Part shown: piece after piece, positions 5,104-31,032 of the stretch
How the letters are laid out: every line of letters starts with the position of its first letter
Numbering within the stretch: the first letter of the stretch is position 1
Virus record (IMG/VR): IMGVR_UViG_3300022538_000701
Coordinates: 1-34,794 of that record
Length of the DNA stretch: 34,794 nucleotides
DNA from: a virus
Direction: 5' to 3' (one strand)
Made by a program: the position numbers and the translations under genes
The notes under the pieces: model-generated
Database searches by the model: none
What the model saw: only the letters and a program-made list of their open reading frames with translations
Told to the model about the DNA's origin: nothing

Positions 5104-6450
5104 CTAAGTTTTCATTAAGAAAGCAACATCATAGTATAGAGGACGAATGTCACTGATAGTGTCGTTTTCGCTTTCACTCTCGGGATTTTGTGCATCCACA
5201 ATATATTTAGCAGTTCCTGACCCCCCATCAAGCTCAGTTGGAATTGTATGAGTATGTCCACTAGTAGTTTTGCTGGTAGTACCTCCAGTAGCACCGGGGT
5301 TAGTAGCCGCAGTAGCCACACCTTCAACGAACCTAGCGAGTAGGTTAGGAGTTCCACCATTTCCATCACAGATAACCCAACTAGATGGGATATTGGCAAT
5401 TAAGCCGTGCCACATAACAATTATGCCTGCGGGGATTTTTGCTACAGTAGTCCACTTAACCCCTGCAGCGACACCTGAATCGGCTTCTAATGATTGTCCA
5501 TCAGAACCTACAGGTATTCTTACAGGAGTGGTGGAATAGCCCATCAAATCTCCCTTGGTAGTTAGCAAAAGTGTAAGCACCTCGGCAATTGTTAAGGCGG
5601 CTATTCCACCTGTAGCCTTTCTGCCAAGTATCCTTGAGGCAGCCACAGCCAATGCAGAAGGTGTATTATCGGTATCAGCTTTCAAGATGGTATTGGCATC
5701 AAAAAGAGCCTTCAATACGATGTTTGCGGTATCAACTAAAGTTGCATCTGAAATCTTGGCGTTCAAGTTCGCCAAAGTATCAACGGCGTGAGAAGCACTT
5801 CCAAGGGCGTGAGTTGCCCATTCGGGTCTATTCGCCCCCATCTTCAGAAGTAAGTTCGCTGCCCCCTTGGGCAACCTAGTAACAGTATTGGCATCTCTTA
5901 TTAAAAGGTCGCCGTCGGTGGTCAGGATTAGTTCCGGGCTGACATCATCTCGCTCAATGAAGCAATACAGCCAAGACCTATGATAATCGTAATAAACCGA
6001 CACAAAGTATTCGCCTTCGGCTATGTCCTTCCACCTGTAAGCCCCATCACCGCCATAGGCTACGCCAGTAGTAACCTCCGAGCCTTCCTGATGAGCACCA
6101 TCGGGTTCGTCATCATCTTGCTGCGGGCGGGTAATCGTTTCATCATTTATCTGTGTTGTCTGTGCATGCTCGGCTGGTGTCGTCGCCCGGTAACCCCGGA
6201 TAACATATAATTTATTAGTAGCGATGTGCCTGACAAACAGCAATTCGTTTTCAATCTTGATAATATCGCCGACGGCAAAATTACCGCCGTTGCTGACATT
6301 GAGTTCAATTGATGTGGCGGCAAGCGGGTTGTCCTGCACGGTATCACCGCTATCGGCATACGAAGCAAAGCCCACTATCTTCCAGAGCTTTGCCGTTGCC
6401 CCGTTCTGAGGCTTGCCGTTATAGATAAATGTGCCGTTTATTGTTCCCAT
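5104..6450 (-). CDS. tail fibre protein with tail-collar domain
   Basis: 448 residues. The N-terminal 170 residues form a beta-rich virion-attachment region (GTINGTFIYNGKPQNGATAK). The middle (200-340) is a low-complexity Ala/Thr/Leu shaft. The last 110 residues are a phage tail-collar domain, with IPAGIIVMW, WVICDGNGGTPNL, ARFVEGV, the GGTTSKTTSGHTHTIP stretch, and RPLYYDVAFLMK at the end. Such domains sit at fibre tips and contact the host surface. It ends just upstream of the zinc-ribbon and hub genes. Confidence 0.85.
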   Translation of the reverse strand: MGTINGTFIYNGKPQNGATAKLWKIVGFASYADSGDTVQDNPLAATSIELNVSNGGNFAVGDIIKIENELLFVRHIATNKLYVIRGYRATTPAEHAQTTQINDETITRPQQDDDEPDGAHQEGSEVTTGVAYGGDGAYRWKDIAEGEYFVSVYYDYHRSWLYCFIERDDVSPELILTTDGDLLIRDANTVTRLPKGAANLLLKMGANRPEWATHALGSASHAVDTLANLNAKISDATLVDTANIVLKALFDANTILKADTDNTPSALAVAASRILGRKATGGIAALTIAEVLTLLLTTKGDLMGYSTTPVRIPVGSDGQSLEADSGVAAGVKWTTVAKIPAGIIVMWHGLIANIPSSWVICDGNGGTPNLLARFVEGVATAATNPGATGGTTSKTTSGHTHTIPTELDGGSGTAKYIVDAQNPESESENDTISDIRPLYYDVAFLMKT

Positions 6451-6767
6451 TATGAACTCCCTCCATAGTGCTTAATATCTGCTTCCCTTTGGGCTTGGGC
6501 TATATCGTGGCGTTGTTGCGCAGGACTATAAACTTCTTCTGGAAAGTAGCTATAAGGCTTTCCTCTCAAGTTGCTTTTATAAATACTTTCCATCTCCTCA
6601 TCACTCAACAATGGCGGTTTATCTTTGGGTGGTTTGCGGTAGCCTTCTAGGACTTGGGTGATTTTCTCTATCGCTCTATCCGCATAAGGTTCTCTGGGGT
6701 AGTAAATGCCCTCCGTTACGGCCTCATTGATTATTTCTGCTATCTTCTCCTGTGCTTCTTTATCCAT
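6450..6767 (-). CDS. hypothetical protein in the tail module
   Basis: 105 residues, mostly helical and charged (MDKEAQEKIAEIINEAVTEG at the start), with a Pro/Lys-rich middle. No family recognised. The GGAGG ribosome site is good, and its stop overlaps the start of the fibre gene. It may be a tail accessory or fibre chaperone by position alone. Confidence 0.6.
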   Translation of the reverse strand: MDKEAQEKIAEIINEAVTEGIYYPREPYADRAIEKITQVLEGYRKPPKDKPPLLSDEEMESIYKSNLRGKPYSYFPEEVYSPAQQRHDIAQAQREADIKHYGGSS

Positions 6768-6891
6768 CTTCCACCTCCTTTAATGGTAATTGAAACCAAT
6801 GTCGGTCAAGCAATCTTTCTTCGTATTTGTGCTCCAACTCGCCGAACCTTATTTTTGCCGATATGGTCATTTTATAAACTTTAGAAGGCAT
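6760..6891 (-). CDS. 43-residue hypothetical protein
   Basis: A short frame whose ATG overlaps the stop of the tape-measure gene (TAATG) and whose last codons overlap the next gene by eight bases. The product is charged (MPSKVYKMTISAKIRFGELE at the start). It carries the ribosome site for the following gene in its coding sequence. It fills a gap that otherwise holds nothing, so I regard it as a probable gene of unknown role. Confidence 0.5.
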   Translation of the reverse strand: MPSKVYKMTISAKIRFGELEHKYEERLLDRHWFQLPLKEVEDG

Positions 6892-8552
6892 TACGTTGCT
6901 CCTTGTAATCCTACTTTCTCGGTTATTCGTTCCACTATAGTTCGTGTAACTTCCTCCCCATCAAGGTAGATATGTATAATGCTCTGAATTGGCGTCCTGC
7001 CCCCCGCAGGCAAAATTACTTCGTGCCTGTGTACCATCGCCAAGCCCGTCTCGGCAACGACGCCGCCGTATTGGAACTTAGGGACTTCGCCTCGTTCCCT
7101 TACATGTTTCCGCATTGCTTCAATCCTACCCGGAGTGCCCACTGACAATGCCCAAGCTTCTCCGTAATATGCTATAAGGGAAGCGGCTAAACCACCCGCC
7201 CGTGCCATGTCAGCGTGATACTCTATCATTGCCTGATTTAGTTCCCTTTGTGCATCGGCTTGTGCATCCACCGCCGCCACCAACTTTTCTTGTTCCTCCC
7301 GTTGTGCTTTTATCTGTTCAAAATATGCCCTTGTGGATTCCACAAGTTCCAATGTTATGCCCTGCTTCTTGTAGTGAGCCTCTATATCAGCATAAAGAGC
7401 TATTAGCGTCTTTTCGTACATTGCCAGCATAGCCTCATATCGGTTCTCCTCACTGGCCAGCAGCTTATCACGTTCGGCAAGCACAGTATTATAATATTCC
7501 GAAAGACCAACCTCTCTTTGTTTTAATTCTGTATATTCTCTAGTTAGCTTCGTCTGCCTTTGCAGCTGCGTGATGCCCCAATAAACCATGCCCAAACCGT
7601 AGGCTAAAGCAATAAGCGGGGCGTAGGCTGCCACTACCGTTGCGACAAATGGGATGAGGGAAGCTGTTACCATGTGAATGCCTGCTGCCAATGATGGTAA
7701 CATTATGAGAAGCATCCCCATCGGTATCAGCATTATACCGACCCCACTGCCCACGAGCACAATCTTTTCATATAAGCCGGGGATAGCTTCCGTCAGCTCA
7801 CGAATCTTCACAATAACTGAGGTAATTTTAGTTACCAAACCTGTAACGACTGGAACTAGAATCTCGGCAATATCGTATTTAAGCCCCGATATAGCCTCCC
7901 GCATGCGGTGCATAGCGTCGTTGAATTTGGCGGCTTTGTCGGCGGCCTCTTGGTCAAACACAATGCCCAGTTCATGAGCTTCCTTCCTGAGTGCCTCGAT
8001 ACCCTCTCTACCTTCTGCCAATAAAGGTAAAAGCTGTGTCCCGGCTCTTCCAAAGATATCTTGGGCGGTGGCTGTCTTTAGTGTTTGGTCTTCCAAATCG
8101 GCTATTGCCATGGCAATCCTCATAAACTGCTCTTCGGGTTTTAATGCTAGCAATTCCTCAGCGCTTAGACCTATACGGTCAAAAGTCCTTATGTAAGTCG
8201 CCATCCCCTCAGAGGCATCCACAATAGTTTTTGACATCTTCTTGGCTGCCTTATCCACAACACTAAGGTCTGCCCCACTTATTTCTAGGGCGTGCCTCAA
8301 TTCTGATAGCGCTTCGGTGGCAAAGCCTGTGCGGAGTGCCATCTTTTGAACCTCGTCCCCCGCTTTGGCAAAGTGCTTTATGCTCATACCAAGCACCCCG
8401 ACAATAGCGCTACCGGCAGCAACCATAGCCATACCCGCCATCCTAAACTGCTTGCTCATATCTTTGGTATTGCCTGAGACGTTCTTCAGGGTCTGGCTGG
8501 CCTCGTCTTTGGCCTTTATTAGAACCGCAATGTTAGCCTGTCCATTTGGCAT
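6891..8552 (-). CDS. tail tape measure protein
   Basis: 553 residues. The N-terminal 230 residues are helical with Ala/Lys/Gln-rich segments (KAKDEASQTLKNVSGNTKDM) and phage tape-measure signatures such as FGRAGTQLLPLLAEG. Residues 262-325 hold long hydrophobic helices (VLVGSGVGIMLIPMGMLLIM), expected for membrane insertion during DNA ejection. A coiled coil follows at 330-450, and the C-terminus includes FQYGGVVAETGLAMVHRHEV. It lies immediately after the frameshifted chaperone pair. The length predicts a rather short siphovirus tail. Confidence 0.9.
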   Translation of the reverse strand: MPNGQANIAVLIKAKDEASQTLKNVSGNTKDMSKQFRMAGMAMVAAGSAIVGVLGMSIKHFAKAGDEVQKMALRTGFATEALSELRHALEISGADLSVVDKAAKKMSKTIVDASEGMATYIRTFDRIGLSAEELLALKPEEQFMRIAMAIADLEDQTLKTATAQDIFGRAGTQLLPLLAEGREGIEALRKEAHELGIVFDQEAADKAAKFNDAMHRMREAISGLKYDIAEILVPVVTGLVTKITSVIVKIRELTEAIPGLYEKIVLVGSGVGIMLIPMGMLLIMLPSLAAGIHMVTASLIPFVATVVAAYAPLIALAYGLGMVYWGITQLQRQTKLTREYTELKQREVGLSEYYNTVLAERDKLLASEENRYEAMLAMYEKTLIALYADIEAHYKKQGITLELVESTRAYFEQIKAQREEQEKLVAAVDAQADAQRELNQAMIEYHADMARAGGLAASLIAYYGEAWALSVGTPGRIEAMRKHVRERGEVPKFQYGGVVAETGLAMVHRHEVILPAGGRTPIQSIIHIYLDGEEVTRTIVERITEKVGLQGAT

Positions 8553-11523: not shown

Positions 11524-11783
11524 TATGCCACCTCAGGTTCTTTAATGACCACTTCCTTCTCGGGTTCTTTAATGGCCACTTCCTTCTCGGGTTCTTTAAT
11601 GGTCACTGCCTTCTTGGGCTTTCTAATGGCCATTCCTTCCTTGGGTTTTCTAATGGTCACATGTACGTCTTCTGATTGGGCTACCAAGGTCATTGCCGCT
11701 TCCTCAACGGATGCGCCCCTCAAAGCCTTGACATCCTTCCCATCCAACTCAAGTGTGCCCGTAACACTTACTTTGACTTTCAT
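11523..11783 (-). CDS. small protein with tandem 9-residue repeats
   Basis: 86 residues. The first 43 form a small alpha-beta domain (MKVKVSVTGTLELDGKDVKA). The rest consists of five nine-residue repeats beginning Ile-Lys/Arg-Lys/Glu-Pro, for example IRKPKKAVT and IKEPEKEVA. The first two units are basic and the last three acidic. It resembles a PEVK-like extended linker. Function unknown; it may be a head or neck component by position. Confidence 0.6.
   Translation of the reverse strand: MKVKVSVTGTLELDGKDVKALRGASVEEAAMTLVAQSEDVHVTIRKPKEGMAIRKPKKAVTIKEPEKEVAIKEPEKEVVIKEPEVA
11526..11654 (-). repeat. tandem 27-bp coding repeat
   Basis: Five in-frame units (the last truncated to seven codons) encode the repeats of residues 44-86. 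The units at 11526-11600 are nearly identical and the earlier ones diverged, a sign of recent expansion by slippage at the gene end. Copy number is likely to vary between relatives. Confidence 0.75.
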
Positions 11784-12006: not shown

Positions 12007-12043
12007 TATTATCTACCCTCCTTCGCCTCAAAAACTCCTGTAT

Positions 12044-12071
12044 GGGGGGGAGGAAATTGTGCCTCCCCCCC
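12044..12071 (-). terminator. GC-rich hairpin after the major capsid gene
   Basis: A perfect 10-bp inverted repeat, GGGGGGGAGG and CCTCCCCCCC, with an eight-base loop. It begins 26 bases past the capsid stop codon. A short T-rich stretch follows on the minus strand but not a long T run. It could be a partial terminator or an RNA-stabilising hairpin that lowers expression of the genes after the capsid. Confidence 0.5.
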
Positions 12072-12097
12072 GTAGTAGCAGTTCTTCAGACCCGGCT

Positions 12098-13021
12098 TTA
12101 TCCGCTATCAACTATCTTGACAGCAGTGCGTGGGTCGCCGTAGCCAACTTCGAACCTGTCATCCACGCCATAGAGGAACGTCTTGTTCTTAAATACATGC
12201 TCCCCTTTGGGGTCATCAAGGGCTACAAACTCGGGCGCTTTCCTCAACTGAAGGATGATTGGATTTACCTCCGCCTTGGTACAAAGTACATACCAATCCA
12301 AGACCTCAGCATCAACCCAAGGAGTGCTGATAATTTGATTGGGACTGAAGTACCCCGCCTCAACACGTGGCACACCCGCCACACCGGGCAGCAGGGCGGA
12401 GCGGATTAGTATCTCCATGTCAGCGGAGCAGACAATGGTGTCGGGTACTAGGTTCATTGCCTTGCCCCGGTCATCCTTAAACTTACGCATCTGGGCTATG
12501 GCAGCACCCAAGGCGGTTCTGATTTCAGCCTCAGCTCCCGAATAAGCTCCAGTGATTATATTCTCAATAGTGTCACTGTCGCCAATTTCTCGGGTAGTGT
12601 CAAAAAATGCAGTGCCGTCATAGGCTTTAAGCGTAGCGCCGTCATCCAACTGACTGAACACCTTTTCGTTAAAGAACTTAATCGCCCGGCGAGCCAGTCC
12701 CTTAACACGGGGGCGGTACAGACCATACTTGTCATCCTCAACGGTATCACGGTCTACTTCAAGGGTCGCCTCGTAGTGCTTGTTGGTAAGCGAGTAGTCG
12801 TAGGCAGGCAGACCGTACAATTTCCTGTGGTCTTTCCACTCACTCATTACGGGTACTGCACCCAGCCAAGCGTAAGATTCCTTATCGGTTATGCTGGTAA
12901 ACAGGGTAGATATCAGCTTGTACAGCCCGTCGGACTTGTCAAAGTCGCCTAGTTCCTTGATGAAGATAGCACGAAAACCTGTCAAAAGTCCCGCTAATAG
13001 GTCGCTTGTTACAGCAGGCAT
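12098..13021 (-). CDS. major capsid protein (Mu gpT-like)
   Basis: 307 residues. It begins MPAVTSDLLAGLLTGFRAIF and then YKLISTLFTSITDKESYAWL, matching the Mu-like major head protein family gpT. The rest includes EATLEVDRDTVEDDKYGLYR and a capsid-type C-terminal region. The gene has a strong AAAGGAG ribosome site, and a stable hairpin follows it. It lies after the protease/scaffold and decoration genes, the standard order. Confidence 0.85.
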   Translation of the reverse strand: MPAVTSDLLAGLLTGFRAIFIKELGDFDKSDGLYKLISTLFTSITDKESYAWLGAVPVMSEWKDHRKLYGLPAYDYSLTNKHYEATLEVDRDTVEDDKYGLYRPRVKGLARRAIKFFNEKVFSQLDDGATLKAYDGTAFFDTTREIGDSDTIENIITGAYSGAEAEIRTALGAAIAQMRKFKDDRGKAMNLVPDTIVCSADMEILIRSALLPGVAGVPRVEAGYFSPNQIISTPWVDAEVLDWYVLCTKAEVNPIILQLRKAPEFVALDDPKGEHVFKNKTFLYGVDDRFEVGYGDPRTAVKIVDSG

Positions 13022-16041: not shown

Positions 16042-18078
16042 CTACGCAACGCTGGGGCGCTCCGATTTGTAAACATATACCCCGATACATCTACAGCGTT
16101 CCTCTCCTTCACAATGCTTGTACGGTGGGGCTACCTCATCCCAGTCGGCACTTGGATAGTCAAATTCCTTTCCATCTTGGTCAGCGCAAGCCCCGCAGGT
16201 ATTCTCATCAAGTATGGCACTGTAAACGACATGGTCAATCTGGTCGCCCATTTCCTTGGCTTGGTCTTGCCTCCCCAAGTTAAATGCATCGCTTACCGTA
16301 AACTTGGCTGTGGCTCGCAGTTCCTTATCTGATAGCTCAGTAAGCGCCGCAGTCAAAGCCCCCCTGTCAACTACGCCCACCTTGGCTTGATGTAGCGCCT
16401 GCCACGCCATTGCCGCCCTCAACTTGTTAGCCAAGATTAATGCTGTGGCTTTGGCACGTTGAATAAGGTAAGCCTTGCTCGCCTTTGAAGATGCTGGCTC
16501 AAGTCCAGTTGGCTCTTGTGCCTTGAGGCTGCCCGCCTGTCTTGTAAGTTCCTGCTTAACCTGTTCCTTACCATAATCATAAAGGTCAAGGAGCACATCT
16601 TGAAGCGCCGTCGCCATCTGCTTTTCGTAGGGTACGCCAATTTCTGATATATCCGTGTCGCCTTTTTCCAGCGCCCTTGCTACCATATTGACAAGGTCAT
16701 TAATCTGCTTTGTTTGTATTTGCTTGGCGGATTTAACAAGCCTATCCTCGGCACTATCAAGTTTGTCTTTTATATCCTTAAAGGCTACGTGCTTTTCTGC
16801 ACCTTGCAAGTACCTTGGGGGCTTCCATTCCTCAGCAAGCCTAAAACGTTCACTCGCCTTTACACCGGGGGCACGAATAGCGGGCAGGTGTAACCTGCGG
16901 CGTAGCTCAACCTCAATGTTACGGTCAGGCAGTATCAGCCCACCAGTTACCAAGTCGGCGATTGCCTTGCTGTACTTGGCAATATCATAGTACTCTAAAC
17001 CGCTTACAGCGAGCTTGGGATAAGCATCAACATCCCAATTATAATCAACCAACTGCCTAAGTGCATAACGATTAAAGGTATCACAGATATTCCTGCTTAC
17101 CGCTTGAAGCGCCATAAGGAAGAAACCCGATTGGTCTTGACTTAGTGCATAACTGCCATACTCGCCAGCGCCAAGGTTGATAAACTGGGCAAGGATGCTG
17201 CGAACAATCTGAAGGTCATGGTGCTCAATTGAACCCTTAATATCGTGCAACTGCCCGGCTACGCCCTTGAGGTCAAAGCTAATCTCATCAGGCAAAGCAA
17301 TATAGGCTCGTTCGTGGGCGTGCAGCTTTTCGCCTATGGCAGTAACCTTATCCTTGTCTTCCTTTGGGGTTGCAGAAGGGTACTTAAACACAGCCAAGCC
17401 CACACCGTGCCGTTCGGCGGCAATTCCATCAATGCGATATAGCTGGTCTTTGTAGTACCAATGTTTGTAAGCTGCCCGTAGTATTGACATACCTTGATAA
17501 TTGCTGCCCTCACGTGCATTGACAAATACAAGCAACTTTTCCACCGGAATGTCTATAAACTGATATTGGTCGTCTTTGAAAACTAACTGCTGGATACCCT
17601 GCAAGCCCCCCTCCTTATCAATCTTCCACCTGTGTAGTGTATTGGCTAACCTTGGGGCAAACTTGCGCCACTTATACTTGCCATCTTTCAGTTCCCACAC
17701 CTTTTCAAACATGCTAAAGCCAAAGGGTAACATCAACAGTATATGGCGCAGGAAGTCATCAAACGTAATGGTCATATCTTCAAATAGATTGTAACGAACA
17801 AACTCGGCTATTTGCTGGTCTTGTTTGCTGTCGCTGGCTGCTTCAACATCCCAATGAGCAGCCCGCAGGGGTAATTCGCAGGCGAGCAGAGCAGCCTTGA
17901 CTTGCCCGTCGCTGCGGCGCATCTTCTCATAAACCTTTATTGCCTTATCGCCCCTGAGGTCGGGGTTATACTCGGTCTCGGTAAGCTGCCCAGCAAAGAA
18001 AATCGTGCCAGTGCCACCAAGCTCAACAACGGATGGCTTTTTGGTTCTGCGTAGTCTAAATATGTCAGTAAGCTTCAT
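16042..18078 (-). CDS. portal protein (Mu gp29/DUF935-like) fused to MuF-type domain
   Basis: 678 residues. Residues 1-430 match the Mu-like portal family, with DKAIKVYEKMRRSDGQVKAA, then HWDVEA, PFGFSMFEKVWE, and QGMSILRAAYKHWYYKDQ. This ring lets DNA in and out of the capsid. The C-terminal part after a helical linker (about 590-678) looks like a MuF/SPP1 gp7 head morphogenesis domain, with AILDENTCGACADQDGKEFD and a second Cys/His cluster before RCRCIGVYVYKSE. Two genes that are separate in Mu are joined here. It lies directly after the large terminase gene. Confidence 0.85.
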   Translation of the reverse strand: MKLTDIFRLRRTKKPSVVELGGTGTIFFAGQLTETEYNPDLRGDKAIKVYEKMRRSDGQVKAALLACELPLRAAHWDVEAASDSKQDQQIAEFVRYNLFEDMTITFDDFLRHILLMLPFGFSMFEKVWELKDGKYKWRKFAPRLANTLHRWKIDKEGGLQGIQQLVFKDDQYQFIDIPVEKLLVFVNAREGSNYQGMSILRAAYKHWYYKDQLYRIDGIAAERHGVGLAVFKYPSATPKEDKDKVTAIGEKLHAHERAYIALPDEISFDLKGVAGQLHDIKGSIEHHDLQIVRSILAQFINLGAGEYGSYALSQDQSGFFLMALQAVSRNICDTFNRYALRQLVDYNWDVDAYPKLAVSGLEYYDIAKYSKAIADLVTGGLILPDRNIEVELRRRLHLPAIRAPGVKASERFRLAEEWKPPRYLQGAEKHVAFKDIKDKLDSAEDRLVKSAKQIQTKQINDLVNMVARALEKGDTDISEIGVPYEKQMATALQDVLLDLYDYGKEQVKQELTRQAGSLKAQEPTGLEPASSKASKAYLIQRAKATALILANKLRAAMAWQALHQAKVGVVDRGALTAALTELSDKELRATAKFTVSDAFNLGRQDQAKEMGDQIDHVVYSAILDENTCGACADQDGKEFDYPSADWDEVAPPYKHCEGEERCRCIGVYVYKSERPSVA

Positions 18079-21989: not shown

Positions 21990-23027
21990 TTACCCTATAT
22001 TCCAAAAGCAAATCGGGTCGTTTAATTCATCAATATGCTCACACATCCAACGATATGCCTTGCGGTCGTACCATTTATCGCAAGGGAATGAGCAGGGGTA
22101 ATTGTCTTCGGCATAGTATTCCCTATCGCCCAGCACAATATCAAAAGGTATTGCCTCAAATCCCGAGGGTAACAAGCTGGTAATACGGCGGCGGATAATT
22201 CTTTCGGGGTCTGATTTACTTTTACCCTCCTTTAGCTCCTTGCCCGTCATACCAATATACACCCCAACCACCCGGCAAGTGCCCTTAATCCCCACCAGCA
22301 AGCCAGCAAACATTGTGCCTGTGGCCACAACACAAATAATCGTTCCTGTCGTAAGCTCAAGGGGCAAACTTCTTGCCTCGCCTGCAACCGAAAGCAAAGA
22401 CTCGGTTAGCTGTCCGCCCATAGGCAATAAATAAACGTCCCTTTTTTGACATTCAATTCTGGCATTGTAATACATGGGATAGATACGGCTGGCGGGCACT
22501 TCTATCAATTCCGCCCCCGCCTCTTTTGCCTTTTGTTGGAAGTAAGGCACAGCGCCTCTTTCAGATTGCCGTGTGCCATAATAAACAGTGCACCTCAACC
22601 CCAAATCCCTGCAAAGCCCGGCAACACCCCAACCTATCCTGCTTGTCCTGCTATCAAGGACAGCGACATGCTTAATACCTCCGCTTATCATTTGCCGAAG
22701 ATGAACTTCAATGCCCCTCATTTTGGCGTTGCCACCCCCATACTTACCATTATTCCAAAGGTCATCTCGCTTTACATAGACCGTCCTATTAAACAACCTA
22801 TATTCCTCAACTGGCGTTCGCAGACGGTCGGGCGTGCCATTCCAATAGCTGCCAATAAACTGGGCGCAGGCGCAACGCCCACACAAGCGTTCCTGCGCAT
22901 AACCCAACTTTACTGCCCTGCTACCGGGGCGGGTGGGGAAGTAAATATCATCATACTTGTCGTCCTCGTTGGGCGGTGCTGTTTTACCGCACATTTCGCA
23001 GGGCTGTATTTCGTTATTATTTACCAA
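21990..23027 (-). CDS. zinc-finger PLP-dependent (fold type II) enzyme
   Basis: 345 residues, TTG start behind AAAGGGG. Residues 10-52 hold a zinc finger (CEMC at 10-13, CGRC at 49-52). The rest is a fold-type II PLP domain of the ACC deaminase/cysteine desulfhydrase kind. It has VYVKRDDLWNNGKYGGGNAK with the presumed PLP lysine K102, a serine/threonine-rich loop near VLDSRTSRIGWG, and a VATGTMFAGLLVG phosphate-binding loop. In other phages PLP enzymes join DNA-modification or nucleotide pathways, and it precedes a methyltransferase and a kinase. The substrate is unknown, and the base-modification idea is inference. Confidence 0.75.
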   Translation of the reverse strand: MVNNNEIQPCEMCGKTAPPNEDDKYDDIYFPTRPGSRAVKLGYAQERLCGRCACAQFIGSYWNGTPDRLRTPVEEYRLFNRTVYVKRDDLWNNGKYGGGNAKMRGIEVHLRQMISGGIKHVAVLDSRTSRIGWGVAGLCRDLGLRCTVYYGTRQSERGAVPYFQQKAKEAGAELIEVPASRIYPMYYNARIECQKRDVYLLPMGGQLTESLLSVAGEARSLPLELTTGTIICVVATGTMFAGLLVGIKGTCRVVGVYIGMTGKELKEGKSKSDPERIIRRRITSLLPSGFEAIPFDIVLGDREYYAEDNYPCSFPCDKWYDRKAYRWMCEHIDELNDPICFWNIG

Positions 23028-24596: not shown

Positions 24597-24756
24597 TTAA
24601 AAACTCCTTTGGCTTTCGTCCTTCTCTTCTACATTGCGGGCAGGCACAAACTATCCTTCCTTGTTGTGAATCATACCACCACCACGTTTCGTCGATATCA
24701 TTAGATGGTATTACTTTGTCGCAACAATCACAGCGTAGTTCCCCTATCCTTTCCAT
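24586..24756 (-). CDS. 56-residue zinc-ribbon protein
   Basis: A small gene with start at 24756. CDCC at residues 9-12 and CACPQC near 37-42 give a four-cysteine zinc site, with a Trp-rich middle (DETWWWYDS) and basic tail. Its end encodes the ribosome site of the following phosphoesterase and overlaps its TTG start by 11 bases, a sign of translational coupling. Function unknown. Confidence 0.6.
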   Translation of the reverse strand: MERIGELRCDCCDKVIPSNDIDETWWWYDSQQGRIVCACPQCRREGRKPKEFLIAS

Positions 24757-24758
24757 TC

Positions 24759-25016
24759 CTATTCCGTATGCCTCAACACAGTCCGCATTTTTTGCGTAGT
24801 GGCATGGTCAAACATGATACGAAAGACCGACCAATTTCCAAGGCCGCTTGCGCCACTTACTTGCTGATAAATCTCAACGAACAACTCACCATCACTATTA
24901 AGCCCCACAACAGCCTTAAAATCGCCCACTGGCGAAACATTAAAGCGCTGCCGATTTAGTATTTCCTCATTTATCTTTACAATCCTAATATCCTGTGAAC
25001 GTGGTTCTTGCATCAT
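24759..25016 (-). CDS. hypothetical protein behind the replisome gene
   Basis: 85 residues. Its ATG overlaps the stop of the replisome gene. It contains beta-strand-like stretches (NVSPVGDFKAVVGLNSDGEL) and no recognised motif. Tight coupling suggests expression together with the replisome, so a replication accessory role is possible. Confidence 0.55.
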   Translation of the reverse strand: MMQEPRSQDIRIVKINEEILNRQRFNVSPVGDFKAVVGLNSDGELFVEIYQQVSGASGLGNWSVFRIMFDHATTQKMRTVLRHTE

Positions 25017-28000
25017 ATTAACTCCCCCAAGTTGTTGCCTATTTTGTATTTTACCACAAGCGGCACAGGAAATGCAATGTCTTGCATGGCGGCTTGCAAC
25101 TTCGGCACTAACTCATCAAGCCTTGCCTCAGGTATGTCAAATATCAATTCATCGTGTATATTGATGGAAGGCGTCCATATTGCCCCCACCTTAGCGGTGG
25201 ATAACTTAAACAATTCGGCAGCCGTGCCAGCTATAGGGAAGTTGACCGCCTCACGAAAGCCTTCCTCCTTTATACGTCTCGTACCACTAAATACTTTGTA
25301 AATGTAGCGCCTACGACCAAAGTAATCCTCAACATAACCATCCCTCAAAACATCAGCCTTGGTGCGCCCTTGCCAGACCCCCAACCCCTGAAGCATGTCA
25401 TAATAATCCCGTATAATTTGCCTGCATTGCTCCAAACTTGGCGGGTTGCCCATACGTTCCAAATCAAACTCCCCCATAGGCGCATTTAAGTATGTATGCA
25501 AACCTTGAGCAGTACCTAGAAACATACTCAAATAATTGGCTGATTTGACCACATACCTATGCGAAGGTTCATGGTCGCCAAACAGTCTATCAGCCAGCCA
25601 ATTATGTATATCCATTTCCCTATCCTGATATGCCTTCATCAGTGCCTCATCACCTGTTACGGCGGCCATAGCCCTCATATCAATTTGACTGTAATCCATA
25701 CTGACCAGCTTACAGCCCGGACTCGCAATAAAGGGTCGCCGTGCCTCAAGCGTATGGGGCAGGTTTTGCAGGTTTGGCTCGCTTGATGAAAGTCTTGCTG
25801 TGGCGACACGAGCTTGACTAAAGGTGGAATGTATAATACCATTCTTATCAGTCAATTCAAGGCAGGCATCGGCATAGGTTGAAATCAGCTTGCTTAATTG
25901 ACGCCACCTCAAAATAATAGGTATAGCAGGATGGTCGTCCATAACTGAAGCCAGTATTTCCTTGCCCGTAGCATACTGTGTGGATTGTTCTGTTTTGGGC
26001 AACTTTATACCTTCTTTTACAAGCCATTCGCCAAGCTGTTTGGGGCTGCTTATTTGCTTTGGTATCAAACCATATTCATCCTCAAGTACAGCCTGCGCAG
26101 TTGCCCGTTGTTTATCAAGCCCCGCCCGCCAATCACGCACATACTCAAGGTCTACCCGTACGCCTTTCCTTTCCATATCAATCAGCACAGGCAGCAGGGG
26201 CTTTTCAATGTTCTCATATATCCAACGCTCACGGTCATCCGCCAGTTGCCACAAGTAGCCCCACAAGCGAACTGTGGTGTCGGTATCTTGGCAGCAATAC
26301 TTGGCTAACTTATCAAGCGATAACTCGGCGGTAATGGCACTGCAATCCTTGTGGTCGACATTCAATTCTTGCGTCTCCAGCACCTTTAAGTGTAAGTTTG
26401 GATAGCCCATGCAGTATGCCAGCAACATAGTATCATCAATCTCTTTGCCTTCCCATTTGTAGCCCTCACGTTCCAGTATTTGCAGGTCATATTTCGCATT
26501 ATGGAACAATAAATATCGCCATTCAGGGCAGTCATTAAGACAATCAACAATCTTCCCGTTGGGGTAAAAACAAGCCATGCCGGGGTGCAAGGAAATAGCG
26601 CCACCCAAAAGCCCCCCATAAAGCCCGGCTGTTTCAGTATCAATGCAGACAAAATCCTTTTCAAACGCCTCGGGGCTGAGTTCGCCGATGCTGTATTCGC
26701 CTTCTATTTCGCTTACAACAGGCAAGCCTTCAAAGCGCTCAAAATCTAGGGTCGCAGCGTTAGCGTAGAACGGGTTGCGCAAGCCCGCCGATGGATGATA
26801 CATAATGATATACGTTATATCGCCACGCCGAACCTTTTTGCCATGATAGCGTGCTATAGAGTAATCAGGCAATAAGGCGCTTACCGCCACATCGCCCAAT
26901 AAAAAGATACGCTTGGGTTTCAATCGTTCCACCTCCGCCTGTAACCTTGGCAAGCAACATTTAATAGCTTTGCTTGTAGGCTTACCAATCTTTTTGCCCT
27001 TCTTGGGTGGGTGGCATAAGCATGTATTGGTAACATAGCAATCAGCCTGCCTAAGATTTGCTATATCAAGCAATTCATCCAAGCGCCTACCGGCTCTGCC
27101 CACAAAGGGCGTGCCCGCTTTAGCTTCATCCTCACCCGGCGCTTCGCCCACGAGCATTATTCCCCCACCCCCCTCCACCCCATATCCCTCAACCCTTGGA
27201 CGTCCCTTTAATGGGCAATGCGCACAGTCTGCAAGCCCCATCTCAGCCACCCTATAATTTTTAATCTTAGATACTGTTACCCCTATTCCCCCCTCCCCCC
27301 CCGAGTTTGGGGGTTGACCAGCTAGGGGGGCAATAACAGCCCCTATGTGGTTATCTTCAAGGTGGGTATCGGTGGGTATCGGTTTTGCATCGGGTATGCC
27401 TCGTCCTGTAATGATTGCTTTTAGGTTGTCTATCCAATTTCGTATTTTCTGTTCTGTCTCCCCACTGGGGTATTGTTCACCTTTCAAATAGAAATTGATT
27501 GACCGTCTATCAATGCCTATTTCTTCGGCGCATTCGCTTTTAGTTTTGCCCAGCTTCCTAGCAAGTATTATCCCTTGGTCAAGCAAATCAGCTATAAACG
27601 GGCGACCCAAGCCTTCCCTTGTTTCCTTATCAAGTTCCCTCCAATCGGCAATAGCCGCCGTTCTTGTAATACCCTCATAGGCAATGCACCAATCGGCGAC
27701 ATCCCATGCCCTTGTCGTGCCTTCAAGCCTGCCGTAATACTTCTCCTCGGGCAACCCGGAGTAAAGCAGTTTGGTAGCGCAGAAGGCGGCAAGCATCTTG
27801 CCCAGCGTCCCTTTTGCCAGTTCAACCCCCCGCCCCGCACTCTCTCCGCTTGCCGTGTGGTGGAGAAAGATGACGGCGCAGTGCAATTCATCAACCATTT
27901 TGCTGGCAAGCTCCCTGACCTCATCCGCCTCTTCCTTGCTGTTGTAATCTTTGACAAAGGATTGGATGCTGTCCATTATCAGCACCTCGCTTTGTTCGGC

Positions 28001-29107
28001 GACCAAGGTATTCCACAGGCTTTCAACGCTCGGCTTATCCCACAACCTAACGTTGCGCCCGTCAAGAATAATTAGGCCGCCAGCCTCACCCAACGTCGTC
28101 TGCATTGCCTTTGCCTGTTTCGCAATGCTAGTGCCACGTTGTTCAAAGTTGATATAGGCTACCCGCTTTGCCTTTGGAACGGCGAGCACGCCCAGCACCG
28201 GTTTGCCTTGGCTCAGTGGGATAGCAAGTGATAAGCCCAGAGTGGTCTTGCCAATGCCTGACACACCTGAGATGATGGCTGTTGCGTTTTCACCACCCTC
28301 AAGAAATTGGTCAATGATTGCTTCAATATGCTCTTCCTCAATTTCATCGGTGAGCCGTATAATTGGCACTGACAAGCGCAGTTTTATTTCAGCCCAAATC
28401 TTCTCCGGCAGGCTAAATCCCATTGTTCTGCTATCGTCCAGCAGTTTGGTTAGTGTGCCCTTGGCGGGGCAGCCGAAGCAGTGAAATACGCCCTTTGCCG
28501 GGTTGATAAACAGGCTGGCATGTTCGTCGTTGTGGTAGGGGCAGTTCATTTTAATTTCGGCGCTGTGGAGACGTTCCCATTCTTTGTCATAGTTAAGATA
28601 CGTCTTCAGCCAACTTTCATAGGGAACAACAAAGGGTTCATCATACAGGGCTACCCATTCCCGTTGTGGTGTATCGGGTGCGATATCCAGCGCTTTGTCC
28701 CCGCCAATACCAAGCTCCCAAAATTCAGCGCCTAACAGTGGATTGTGTTCTTTAACTGCAAACGGTGCAACGTCCGCCCGCATTACCACATGAGAGCCTC
28801 TGGCGCTTTTGTGGATGCAGCAGCCTTCACCGAATGCGCCCGCCTGTTTTAAGGTCTTGAATACCTCAAGTGTATCGCAATCTATACTGAAAAGATTGTG
28901 GGATAGTACAAAAGCAAGCCCCCAAGGTTGCTGTTTAACGAACCACTCCTCATATTCCTTATCTGTGGGCAGTTGGGTTTGATACTTTGTCCACTCAATT
29001 AGGGGCTTCTTTGACTTTGCAATGGGTATTACAGCGCAATCCCATACATCAGTGTAGAATCGCACAAAATCCATACGTGTCCAACCTGTTGTATCAATCA
29101 ATCTCAT
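25013..29107 (-). CDS. single-chain replisome: Prim-Pol, zinc, helicase, HTH, UDG, exonuclease, PolA
   Basis: A 1364-residue protein. In order: Prim-Pol domain (about 10-170) with D76 and D78 (SIDCDT), H106 (RGSHV) and D141; CHC2-like zinc motif C189, H192, C210, C213; RecA/RepA-type ATPase with Walker A GVSGIGKTT at 281-289, Walker B LIMDS at 376-380 and H416/H417; HTH at about 519-563; Gly-rich linker; family 4 uracil-DNA glycosylase (622-795) with GEAPGEDE, PFVGRAG, HPS and Fe-S cysteines C628, C631, C698, C718; 3'-5' exonuclease with D823/E825, N870/D874 and Y937/D941; family A polymerase with motif A at 1138-1145, motif B at 1184-1198 and HDE at 1318-1320. All domains look intact, so one polypeptide could prime, unwind, copy, proofread and scan for uracil. 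The start has a weak AAGGA site. An iteron array lies directly upstream. SPO1-type phages have UDG-PolA and apicoplasts have primase-helicase-PolA fusions (from memory); this combination is unfamiliar to me. Confidence 0.93.
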   Translation of the reverse strand: MRLIDTTGWTRMDFVRFYTDVWDCAVIPIAKSKKPLIEWTKYQTQLPTDKEYEEWFVKQQPWGLAFVLSHNLFSIDCDTLEVFKTLKQAGAFGEGCCIHKSARGSHVVMRADVAPFAVKEHNPLLGAEFWELGIGGDKALDIAPDTPQREWVALYDEPFVVPYESWLKTYLNYDKEWERLHSAEIKMNCPYHNDEHASLFINPAKGVFHCFGCPAKGTLTKLLDDSRTMGFSLPEKIWAEIKLRLSVPIIRLTDEIEEEHIEAIIDQFLEGGENATAIISGVSGIGKTTLGLSLAIPLSQGKPVLGVLAVPKAKRVAYINFEQRGTSIAKQAKAMQTTLGEAGGLIILDGRNVRLWDKPSVESLWNTLVAEQSEVLIMDSIQSFVKDYNSKEEADEVRELASKMVDELHCAVIFLHHTASGESAGRGVELAKGTLGKMLAAFCATKLLYSGLPEEKYYGRLEGTTRAWDVADWCIAYEGITRTAAIADWRELDKETREGLGRPFIADLLDQGIILARKLGKTKSECAEEIGIDRRSINFYLKGEQYPSGETEQKIRNWIDNLKAIITGRGIPDAKPIPTDTHLEDNHIGAVIAPLAGQPPNSGGEGGIGVTVSKIKNYRVAEMGLADCAHCPLKGRPRVEGYGVEGGGGIMLVGEAPGEDEAKAGTPFVGRAGRRLDELLDIANLRQADCYVTNTCLCHPPKKGKKIGKPTSKAIKCCLPRLQAEVERLKPKRIFLLGDVAVSALLPDYSIARYHGKKVRRGDITYIIMYHPSAGLRNPFYANAATLDFERFEGLPVVSEIEGEYSIGELSPEAFEKDFVCIDTETAGLYGGLLGGAISLHPGMACFYPNGKIVDCLNDCPEWRYLLFHNAKYDLQILEREGYKWEGKEIDDTMLLAYCMGYPNLHLKVLETQELNVDHKDCSAITAELSLDKLAKYCCQDTDTTVRLWGYLWQLADDRERWIYENIEKPLLPVLIDMERKGVRVDLEYVRDWRAGLDKQRATAQAVLEDEYGLIPKQISSPKQLGEWLVKEGIKLPKTEQSTQYATGKEILASVMDDHPAIPIILRWRQLSKLISTYADACLELTDKNGIIHSTFSQARVATARLSSSEPNLQNLPHTLEARRPFIASPGCKLVSMDYSQIDMRAMAAVTGDEALMKAYQDREMDIHNWLADRLFGDHEPSHRYVVKSANYLSMFLGTAQGLHTYLNAPMGEFDLERMGNPPSLEQCRQIIRDYYDMLQGLGVWQGRTKADVLRDGYVEDYFGRRRYIYKVFSGTRRIKEEGFREAVNFPIAGTAAELFKLSTAKVGAIWTPSINIHDELIFDIPEARLDELVPKLQAAMQDIAFPVPLVVKYKIGNNLGELI
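27162..27302 (-). other. two G-rich tracts on the coding strand at the helicase-UDG junction
   Basis: On the coding strand, runs of G at 27280-27302 (8, 6 and 4 G in sequence) and at 27162-27181 (5, 6, 2 and 4 G) lie in the linker and early UDG segment (residues 603-610 and 643-649). They could form G-quadruplexes. The linker coding is low-complexity Gly-rich. This may mark a recent domain fusion or a pause site during translation or replication. Confidence 0.4.
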
Positions 29108-29142
29108 AGTGCCATAATCCTTAACTTTTTTAGTCTACGCCT

Positions 29143-29213
29143 GATTCACTACTTTTATAACCGGCGCAGGGATTCACTATTTTTTTAAGGTGCGCAGGGA
29201 TTCACTACTTTTA
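29143..29213. repeat. three 28-bp-spaced iterons upstream of the replisome gene
   Basis: GATTCACTA occurs at 29143-29151, 29171-29179 and 29199-29207, exactly 28 bases apart. The second and third extend to a longer unit that includes GCGCAGGGATTCACTA, and all are followed by T-rich sequence. Directly repeated units beside a replication gene are typical of iterons bound by an initiator. The gap 29108-29285 (178 bases) holds no gene. Confidence 0.75.
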
Positions 29214-29269
29214 GGCGGAACAAATCTCCATCAATGTAATCATTGACTTAATGATTTCATCCGCCTAAA
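29210..29269. other. nested inverted repeats, candidate replication origin
   Basis: TTTAGGCGGA (29210-29219) and TCCGCCTAAA (29260-29269) form a 10-bp inverted repeat. Inside it are TCAATG/CATTGA (29231-29236 and 29241-29246) and AATCAT/ATGATT (29238-29243 and 29251-29256). The interior is AT-rich. With the iterons beside it and a primase-helicase-polymerase gene downstream, it is the best origin candidate in the window; operator function is an alternative. Confidence 0.55.
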
Positions 29270-29285
29270 TTTCGATTGTAGTGCG

Positions 29286-29624
29286 CTACTTTATACTGTA
29301 GTAACGCCCCAGTTTGCCCTTTACCCTTATAATTTGAATGAGTACGGGTAAATACTGCTTGGCCATCTGCTTGAGGGCGTCGATTACAACCGTACCGCCA
29401 CAGGCGGTGGTGCATAGTTCATCCTTCCAATGGAACTGCATAACGGCGAACTCGCCGCCATACTGTTTGCTTGGCAGGATTACAAAATCCAGCAGTTCAA
29501 TTTCCTCGCCGAGTATGTCCTCGACACCTCCATCAAGCCGCCGTCCTTCAAGTTGCACGCCTACGCCTACGGTAACAAAATCAGTTAGCCTTTTCTTTGG
29601 TGTTACTTTTGGTGGTGGGCACAT
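29286..29624 (-). CDS. possible single-stranded DNA-binding protein
   Basis: 112 residues with strand-rich pattern, including ILGEEIELLDFVILPSKQYG, FAVMQFHWKD and a C-terminal VKGKLGRYYSIK. The strong AAAGGAGGT ribosome site suggests high expression. Its place just before the origin and replisome gene, after a nuclease and HNH-like gene, fits an OB-fold SSB. No acidic C-terminal tip of the bacterial SSB kind is present. The call is by position and fold impression. Confidence 0.45.
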   Translation of the reverse strand: MCPPPKVTPKKRLTDFVTVGVGVQLEGRRLDGGVEDILGEEIELLDFVILPSKQYGGEFAVMQFHWKDELCTTACGGTVVIDALKQMAKQYLPVLIQIIRVKGKLGRYYSIK

Positions 29625-29712: not shown

Positions 29713-29957
29713 TGTGCTTCGTATGTTACTATGACCCTTGCATCGGGCAAGCCCTGCCCGGCTCGTGCCAGCGCCAACAGGTTAGCCACCTTTTTGGGGT
29801 CGGCTAAAAGTTTCACCCGCCCCAACAGGGTAACTAAATAGTGGCATCCCCGGCATACGTCAACTTCGGGCGAGCCAGGTTGCCCCTGCCCAAGAACGTG
29901 ATGGGATTGAAAGTATTTTTTCTTAGCTTTGTTGCACACCCAACATCGTTTCATCAT
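29709..29957 (-). CDS. small HNH-like zinc protein
   Basis: 82 residues with CWVC at 5-8, a central HHVLGQGQPG segment (His 19, 20) and CRGC at 35-38. Two CxxC knuckles around His-His resemble the treble-clef finger of small HNH nucleases. The rest is helical. Only one catalytic HH pair is visible and no clear N residue, so nuclease activity is uncertain. It overlaps the RecB-like nuclease gene upstream. Confidence 0.55.
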   Translation of the reverse strand: MMKRCWVCNKAKKKYFQSHHVLGQGQPGSPEVDVCRGCHYLVTLLGRVKLLADPKKVANLLALARAGQGLPDARVIVTYEAQ

Positions 29958-30670
29958 AATCTATCCAATGTCAGCTTTTTGAAAATGCGGTCTAAGCTTC
30001 TACGTGGGTCTTTACTTTTGCGCAACCCGTAGACCATGCGCAGGTATCTAAATATCTCCAATTCGGTAAAAAGCCTATCATAGCGGGAATGTGTTAGCCT
30101 TCCATCCGTTTTGCTTAATTGGATAATATGGGCGTTGGCAATAGGCTGGTCGGGATTGTTCTCATTCCACATCGCCCAGTACGCAGCCAGTTGGTAAAGC
30201 ATTTCATCATAGACCGCCTTGCTGGTCTTAATATCAACTAACCATATCTCATCAAGGTTGTGCTCGTAAGCTATACAATCTATAGTACCACCACATTGCA
30301 TTGCTTCGCTCACAAGGCTATGCTCGACCTTTATTATTTCAAGTGCCTGTTGTTCCCACCACTGCTTGAAATTGGTGAATGCAACCTGGGCGATTTTAAT
30401 GCTGGAGGGTACGAAATCATCAAGTTTGGGGTCAATACCTTTAAGGTAACATTCCACGAGGTAGTGGGCAATTGTGCCTATATTAGCGGCTTTGTCGGTA
30501 ACTTTACGATAATCTTCACCATGCATCCCCAAATCCCACGCCCAATGTACAAGGGCGGGCTTGTTTAGCAATGATATTATGGTGGTCACACCCGGAACTA
30601 CCTGCCCTTGCTCATTTTTATACCGGATATGGGCTTTTGTGCTGCTTGTTGTTTCTTTAGTTATGGCCAT
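29954..30670 (-). CDS. PD-(D/E)XK nuclease (RecB/Cas4-like)
   Basis: 238 residues from the ATG at 30670 (an upstream in-frame TTG would add eight residues but lacks a better ribosome site). The nuclease core shows H69 (GTIAHYLVE), GGTID with D131, D146 and K148 (LVDIKTSK), and Q160 (YQLAAYW). This is the RecB/Cas4-type fold, normally an exonuclease used for recombination or DNA processing. No Cys cluster of the Cas4 Fe-S type was seen. Likely a partner of the replication module. Confidence 0.8.
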   Translation of the reverse strand: MAITKETTSSTKAHIRYKNEQGQVVPGVTTIISLLNKPALVHWAWDLGMHGEDYRKVTDKAANIGTIAHYLVECYLKGIDPKLDDFVPSSIKIAQVAFTNFKQWWEQQALEIIKVEHSLVSEAMQCGGTIDCIAYEHNLDEIWLVDIKTSKAVYDEMLYQLAAYWAMWNENNPDQPIANAHIIQLSKTDGRLTHSRYDRLFTELEIFRYLRMVYGLRKSKDPRRSLDRIFKKLTLDRL

Positions 30671-30828
30671 TTTATTCCCTTTCTCTTTCTCCAATGCTTC
30701 AAGCAGAGTCTCTTCTGATTTTTGCCAGTGCCTATCAACCCGCTAATCCCGTTGGTCTCACAGCAACAGTCACCACAGACAAGCTATTTGTTGTGGATTT
30801 TATTCCCTAGCTTTATTGTCTTGCTCAT
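30661..30828 (-). pseudogene. Cys-rich zinc-finger frame split by an in-frame TAG
   Basis: An ATG at 30828 (overlapping the stop of the 49-residue gene as ATGA) opens a frame that meets TAG at 30784-30786 after 14 codons. The same frame continues 40 more codons with CGDCCC and CLKHW, i.e. a C-x2-CCC...C-x3-H zinc-finger pattern, and ends with TAA inside the nuclease start. Either it is a nonsense-mutated gene, or the TAG is read through. The rest of the window uses TAG normally, so recoding across the genome is not supported. Confidence 0.4.
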
Positions 30829-30974
30829 CTAATCTTTCGCCTTGCCACCTGCACTCGAGACTTTGGTAGCACCAAACCAGTGCTTGGATGTAAAACGGTG
30901 GGTAGGCTTGGGCATATCTGATGAGTGTACCAGCCGTCATCTCGCTTTATTACCATTCTGCGCCTTATGCTCAT
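30825..30974 (-). CDS. 49-residue basic peptide
   Basis: Start ATG at 30974 follows an AAGGG ribosome site (eight bases away). The product is rich in Arg and Lys (SIRRRMVIKRDDGW at the start, ARRKIR at the end) with one Cys. It is coupled by ATGA to the interrupted zinc-finger frame. Nucleic-acid binding is plausible, but there is no family match. Confidence 0.5.
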   Translation of the reverse strand: MSIRRRMVIKRDDGWYTHQICPSLPTVLHPSTGLVLPKSRVQVARRKIR

Positions 30975-31032
30975 TGTTGTGCCCTTATTTTACCATGGTT
31001 GCATTACTTCATGCAAGTCCTATTTTTACTCA

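Follow-up and report, generated by a model that had tools for sequence, protein, structure and literature searches.

A candidate replication origin within the linker-coding part of a replisome fusion gene in an IMG/VR virus record, and a repeat-and-hairpin element in the leader of that gene

In the origin of phage lambda, oriLambda, the iterons and an AT-rich tract lie within the central part of gene O, where extra iterons add codons to the gene (PMC7466680), and the Rep protein of the SaPI elements binds through its C-terminal domain to iterons located directly downstream of its own gene (PMC7581432). Plasmid iterons are generally in helical phase (PMC5043065). In iteron plasmids of the RK2, P1 and R6K type, direct repeats and an AT-rich tract lie beside the rep gene. 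The window analysed here is the whole of a 34.8-kb virus record (IMGVR_UViG_3300022538_000701), the long ORFs of which lie almost all on the − strand. From its comparison with two relatives, we consider it reasonably likely that the origin is situated inside the replisome gene, in the stretch encoding a linker, and that the element of repeats and a hairpin at 29143–29269, upstream of that gene, is a lineage-specific leader or control element.

The replisome gene (25013–29107, − strand) encodes a fusion of 1364 residues that, judged by its Pfam and PHROGs domains, looks like an all-in-one replisome. A CHC2 zinc ribbon (residues 184–232) and an AAA_25/KaiC helicase-type ATPase (262–430) are followed by an HTH_3 segment (517–553), a linker (about 567–612), a domain of the uracil-DNA glycosylase (UDG) superfamily (649–783), a 3'–5' exonuclease and a DNA polymerase A domain (999–1361); the N-terminus aligns with that of a relative that scores as Prim-Pol, a score obtained in the relative only. 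The HTH_3-like segment (27449–27559, − strand) falls slightly below the Pfam cut-off (E = 3.2e-4) and was matched in the window only, with no Pfam HTH match in the relatives, and the helicase/HTH half was modelled poorly (pLDDT 38), with low-confidence helices at residues 505–567; this segment would be the natural candidate for origin binding. Searches with the N-terminal half gave one weak zinc-ribbon match among phage records and no relative among the PLSDB plasmids. No lambda O family match was found for the protein in the domain search, which returned CHC2, AAA_25, HTH_3, UDG and PolA; it may therefore work like an O-type initiator, but is not one. Upstream, beyond a 178-bp gap (29108–29285), lies a 112-aa ORF (29286–29624, − strand) that both relatives share (59% and 44% identity). 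Its structure model shows a β-β-β-α-β-β order (pLDDT 61), which would suit, at low confidence, an OB-fold single-stranded DNA-binding protein; a fold search with the model gave no significant match.

The relatives were reached through the exonuclease (29954–30694) and a 678-aa protein (16042–18078) of the window, which led to IMGVR_UViG_3300035179_000023 (L002/L004, hereafter L002), the closer of the two, where the replisome gene is likewise fused (65% identity). Through a two-sequence alignment we next reached IMGVR_UViG_3300033064_004059 (L099), a more distant genome in which the protein is divided between a 613-aa Prim-Pol-type/helicase gene and a 755-aa UDG-PolA gene, two small ORFs lying between these genes. 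Two- and three-sequence alignments, when used in viral scans, returned L002 and L099 as the only full relatives; among the GTDB genomes, a first scan gave no relative and a second gave low-identity family A polymerases and no replisome relative. The comparison set thus consists of three genomes.

The probable location of the origin, as far as sequence comparison can place it, is at about 27.25–27.39 kb, inside the replisome gene and 1.8 kb from the element at 29.2 kb. In the linker-coding stretch that follows the HTH segment, the − strand reads CCGATGC, AAAA, CCGATAC, CCA and CCGATAC in succession (27366–27393), giving three proposed iterons that start at 27393, 27382 and 27372, with spacings of 11 and 10 bp and codon phases 2, 1 and 2. 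As neither spacing is divisible by 3, the units fall in different frames, and the repeat is one of DNA rather than of protein. The chance expectation of such a CCGATRC triple in the genome is 0.00, and the 5-mer chain of the window array taken alone was reached by 37 of 2000 synonymous shuffles. The linker of L002 carries four CCGATGY units spaced by 11, 11 and 10 bp, the 6-mer chain of which was reached by none of 2000 synonymous shuffles. The linker motif was recognized with the window and L002 both already in view. Between these two genomes the iteron columns are identical at 19 of 21 positions, as against 46% in the remaining linker (p = 9e-5), a figure that depends on the alignment; some of the conservation could also be at the protein level, since the linker is rich in Pro and Gly and the two proteins share D-A-x-P...D residues.

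On the 3' side of the iterons lies the proposed unwinding tract (27250–27290, − strand), which holds AGTATCTAAGATTAAAAAT and has a 40-bp GC minimum of 0.30, within the lowest 1.3% of the genome. L002 matches the latter without change over 19 nt; identical runs of 19 nt occur in a few other places of the gene, so that the identity of the AT-rich tract is not special on its own account. In L099, where the gene is split, about six AGTGGCATA-type units occur at the junction of the helicase and PolA halves, in a true intergenic gap. These units, found by a tandem-repeat scan of the relatives at 8388–8453, are of the form (A)GTGGCAT(A), or TGGCATA-type, and lie about 11–12 bp apart. The 40-mer richest in AT within the 16.8-kb locus (GC 0.15 at 8483) comes immediately after them, an arrangement that, read from sequence, is typical of iteron origins. 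The phasing of the L099 units is looser (resultant 0.54) than that in the window and L002 (0.98–0.99). In all three genomes the arrays occupy one syntenic junction, where the helicase/HTH half meets the UDG-PolA half, and in all three the array comes before the AT-rich tract. The HTH is similar in the window and L002, which have similar iterons, and differs in L099.

That the linker repeats are instead a product of chance, or protein-level repeats of a low-complexity linker, with the origin elsewhere, is in our view rather unlikely. The linker is indeed repetitive and rich in Gly and Pro, and the window array is limited to three units, yet such an explanation is at odds with a 10–11-bp period that changes the reading frame, with the array that L099 has at this junction in non-coding DNA, with the outcome of the synonymous shuffles in L002 and with the CCGATRC arrays found independently at other initiator genes. 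The sequence-only reading had proposed an iteron-controlled replicon beside a Prim-Pol replisome; that general idea gains from the arrays at the syntenic junction of the three genomes, though the origin is probably at another place than the 29.14–29.27 kb given for it.

In the favoured reading, with the origin in the linker, the HTH of the protein, encoded just upstream of the linker, would bind the CCGATRC iterons; this binding would open the AT-rich tract at 27250–27290, where the protein could load its own helicase, Prim-Pol primase and polymerase. With the polymerase gene joined on downstream in this lineage, the origin would come to lie within one reading frame. The step from the split genes of L099 to the fusion suggests, without proving it, that the fusion engulfed what was once an intergenic origin; the alternative direction is a fission followed by expansion of the gap. 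We tentatively propose, as a reading with a chance close to even, that the 4.1-kb gene is a nearly complete replicon, comprising primase, helicase-type ATPase, origin-binding HTH, UDG-like domain and polymerase, with its own origin in the linker codons, trapped there when the initiator-helicase and polymerase genes fused across an intergenic origin. If true, this would be a very small and self-contained phage replicon and an instance of the capture of an origin inside a gene by fusion.

The candidate at 27250–27393 shares with lambda-type origins the phased iterons within the coding sequence of an initiator and the AT-rich tract on one side of them. It differs in two respects: lambda O is small and relies on P to bring in host replication proteins, whereas the 1364-aa fusion described here brings a primase, a helicase-type ATPase and a polymerase of its own, and the lambda units are 19-bp inverted repeats, whereas here a 7-bp core recurs every 10–11 bp. 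The initiator helicases of the SaPI/SCCmec type, which carry a C-terminal DNA-binding domain, have short iterons immediately downstream (PMC7581432), and the candidate resembles them in this layout, the sub-threshold HTH_3 segment being a putative counterpart of that domain: the iterons of the window and L002 lie directly 3' of the helicase/DNA-binding part, and those of L099 follow after two small ORFs. Compared with the SaPI/SCCmec proteins, the ATPase is AAA_25/KaiC-like and the N-terminus is of the Prim-Pol type; moreover, the polymerase is fused downstream, so that the iterons are coding here, unlike in those elements.

Arrays of the same kind were sought across IMG/VR as three CCGATRC units at 10–11 bp and were found in 39 contigs, L002 among them, a raw count in which many contigs carry no assignment. 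In three contigs the array follows a primase-helicase or helicase ORF at a distance of 3, 7 and 63 bp (L194, L205 and L206, with Prim-Pol plus AAA_25, RepB primase/PriCT-2 plus AAA_25, and AAA_25, respectively), which is also the SaPI/SCCmec-type layout. In nine contigs it lies inside O-like or DnaD-like initiator genes; these 10–11-bp-period, CCGATRC-type arrays (L188, L192, L195, L202, L209, L210, L212, L215 and L217) belong to different phages and are likely to be unrecognized origins. The search thus met arrays of this kind in initiator genes that otherwise differ, and we count it as support for the linker origin, not as proof; that one motif is common to different types of initiator may in part be a selection effect of the search. 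If the favoured reading is true, helically phased, frame-shifting repeats 3' of the DNA-binding part of an initiator would offer a route to finding origins in uncultured phages. Five further contigs (L181, L199, L200, L211 and L207) carry CCGATAC arrays in gene-free gaps adjoining exonuclease genes of phrog_298, to which the exonuclease of the window also belongs.

The repeats and the hairpin that had drawn attention to 29143–29269 are real. Exact copies of GATTCACTA are present at 29143, 29171 and 29199, with spacings of 28 and 28 bp, as was claimed, within an array of 2.5 copies of a 28-bp unit with core GATTCACTAYTTTT (29143–29213; tandem-repeat score 107). Sixty first-order Markov genomes of equal size contained no equal-spaced 9-mer triple, the chance expectation of the gapped triple pattern is 0.00, and the sole other equal-spaced 9-mer triple in the window belongs to a coding repeat of 27 bp at 11.5 kb (11532–11660, 4.8 copies), which is in frame in an 86-aa ORF and hence a protein-level repeat. 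Next to the array, the described 10-bp inverted repeat is perfect (TTTAGGCGGA/TCCGCCTAAA at 29210–29219/29260–29269; 17 nt at 88% overall) and encloses a nested one with arms at 29234–29244/29250–29260. Pairing of CACTAC with GTAGTG, in which the third repeat meets 29278–29283, extends this core (29210–29269) to a nested hairpin at 29199–29283 (− strand), which starts about 16 nt past the stop codon of the 112-aa ORF. On the − (transcript) strand the stretch 29201–29300 ranks first in folding among 1736 windows of 100 nt (z −8.8), and on the + strand it folds less strongly (z −6.0). The exact equal spacing, the Markov genomes and the top fold score together show that the observation is right and not a matter of chance. 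Other strong folds on the transcript strand are found at 12041–12140 (z −6.1), 2481–2580 (z −6.5) and 5441–5540 (z −5.8).

That these 28-bp repeats and the AT-rich hairpin form an iteron origin, as first proposed, to which the HTH of the replisome protein would bind, now appears unlikely. As in iteron plasmids, direct repeats well beyond chance lie beside a rep-like gene with an AT-rich tract adjacent (40-bp GC minimum 0.275, within the lowest 0.6% of the genome), and it counts in favour of an origin that the array and hairpin are real, far from random and placed in the gene-free gap of 178 bp that immediately precedes an initiator-like gene. The array, however, has only three units, and their 28-bp spacing corresponds to 2.67 helical turns, so that successive units are 240 degrees apart (phases 0, 240 and 120 degrees), sit on three different faces of the helix and are not helically phased, in contrast to plasmid iterons (PMC5043065). 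Nor has the element been kept beside the replication gene in the relatives. In L099 the homologue of the 112-aa ORF stops 17 bp before the replisome gene, and L002 has at the equivalent site a gap of about 670 bp with unrelated sequence, another possible small gene, different folding and no repeats resembling those of the window. GATTCACTAYTTTT was found in the window alone among the loci examined, a tight pair of the repeat motif (GATTCACTANTTTT) was found in no other contig across IMG/VR, and the motif has no further sites in the genome beyond chance. The element is therefore, on present data, lineage-specific. Origins do change quickly between relatives, which counts in favour of an origin here; against it stand the absence of the element from both relatives, the unphased spacing, the lack of a tight motif pair in IMG/VR and the competing syntenic arrays in all three genomes, which together leave the case for 29.2 kb weak. 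A mobile-element origin of the element was also considered, and neither a second copy in the window and loci nor clear boundaries were found.

The gap had been called the only gene-free stretch between the replication genes; 24597–24758 (162 bp) and 30695–31032 (338 bp) are likewise without long same-strand ORFs. The predicted GC-skew extreme at 29.1–29.3 kb did not appear, the skew falling steadily through the window with no turning point, and it is uninformative for an origin because nearly all genes are on one strand. A single match to a DnaA box in the window lies at 8251, far from both arrays.

For the repeats in the leader, the favoured reading provides that they are probably sites for a putative regulator, possibly the replisome protein itself. 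No HTH-bearing phage repressor was recognizable among the small ORFs scanned, which leaves the 28-bp repeats without a named regulator. A version in which both arrays are used, the linker array as the origin and the 28-bp repeats as secondary sites of the replisome protein for autorepression or copy control, in the manner of incompatibility-type iterons, draws on the position of these repeats in the leader of the replisome gene. The leader of the rep gene is the usual place of autoregulation in iteron plasmids. CCGATRC and GATTCACTA have no evident common core, though, so that a single HTH would need two specificities, and we regard this version as very unlikely.

For the hairpin, the favoured reading holds that in the transcript it probably separates the expression of the 112-aa ORF from that of the replisome gene. 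It is possible, if doubtful, that 29143–29269 acts mainly as RNA, as an attenuator or as a processing or 3'-protecting hairpin, with the repeats forming part of the leader, a role that would be compatible with the linker origin. It agrees with a fold that is stronger on the transcript strand than on the other (z −8.8 and −6.0) and starts some 16 nt past a stop codon, and with the large hairpins at the L002 junction, which are of unrelated sequence; it would leave the 28-bp repeats unexplained, and neither a U-run nor an Rfam match was found for the hairpin, which, lacking the U-run, is no intrinsic terminator. In L002 three consecutive large hairpins extend from a 120-aa ORF to the replisome gene (6723–6990), their sequence unrelated to that of the window hairpin, and single 100-nt windows at this junction fold to only z −2.8. 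Rfam and tRNA scans found nothing, and a promoter and terminator scan gave one weak promoter match on the + strand and zero terminators, both within chance.

Two further features of the window were noted. One passage could form a G-quadruplex or merely reflect Gly codons, and a gene for a PLP-dependent enzyme (21990–23027), an unusual cargo, matches the phage threonine dehydratase family phrog_7093.
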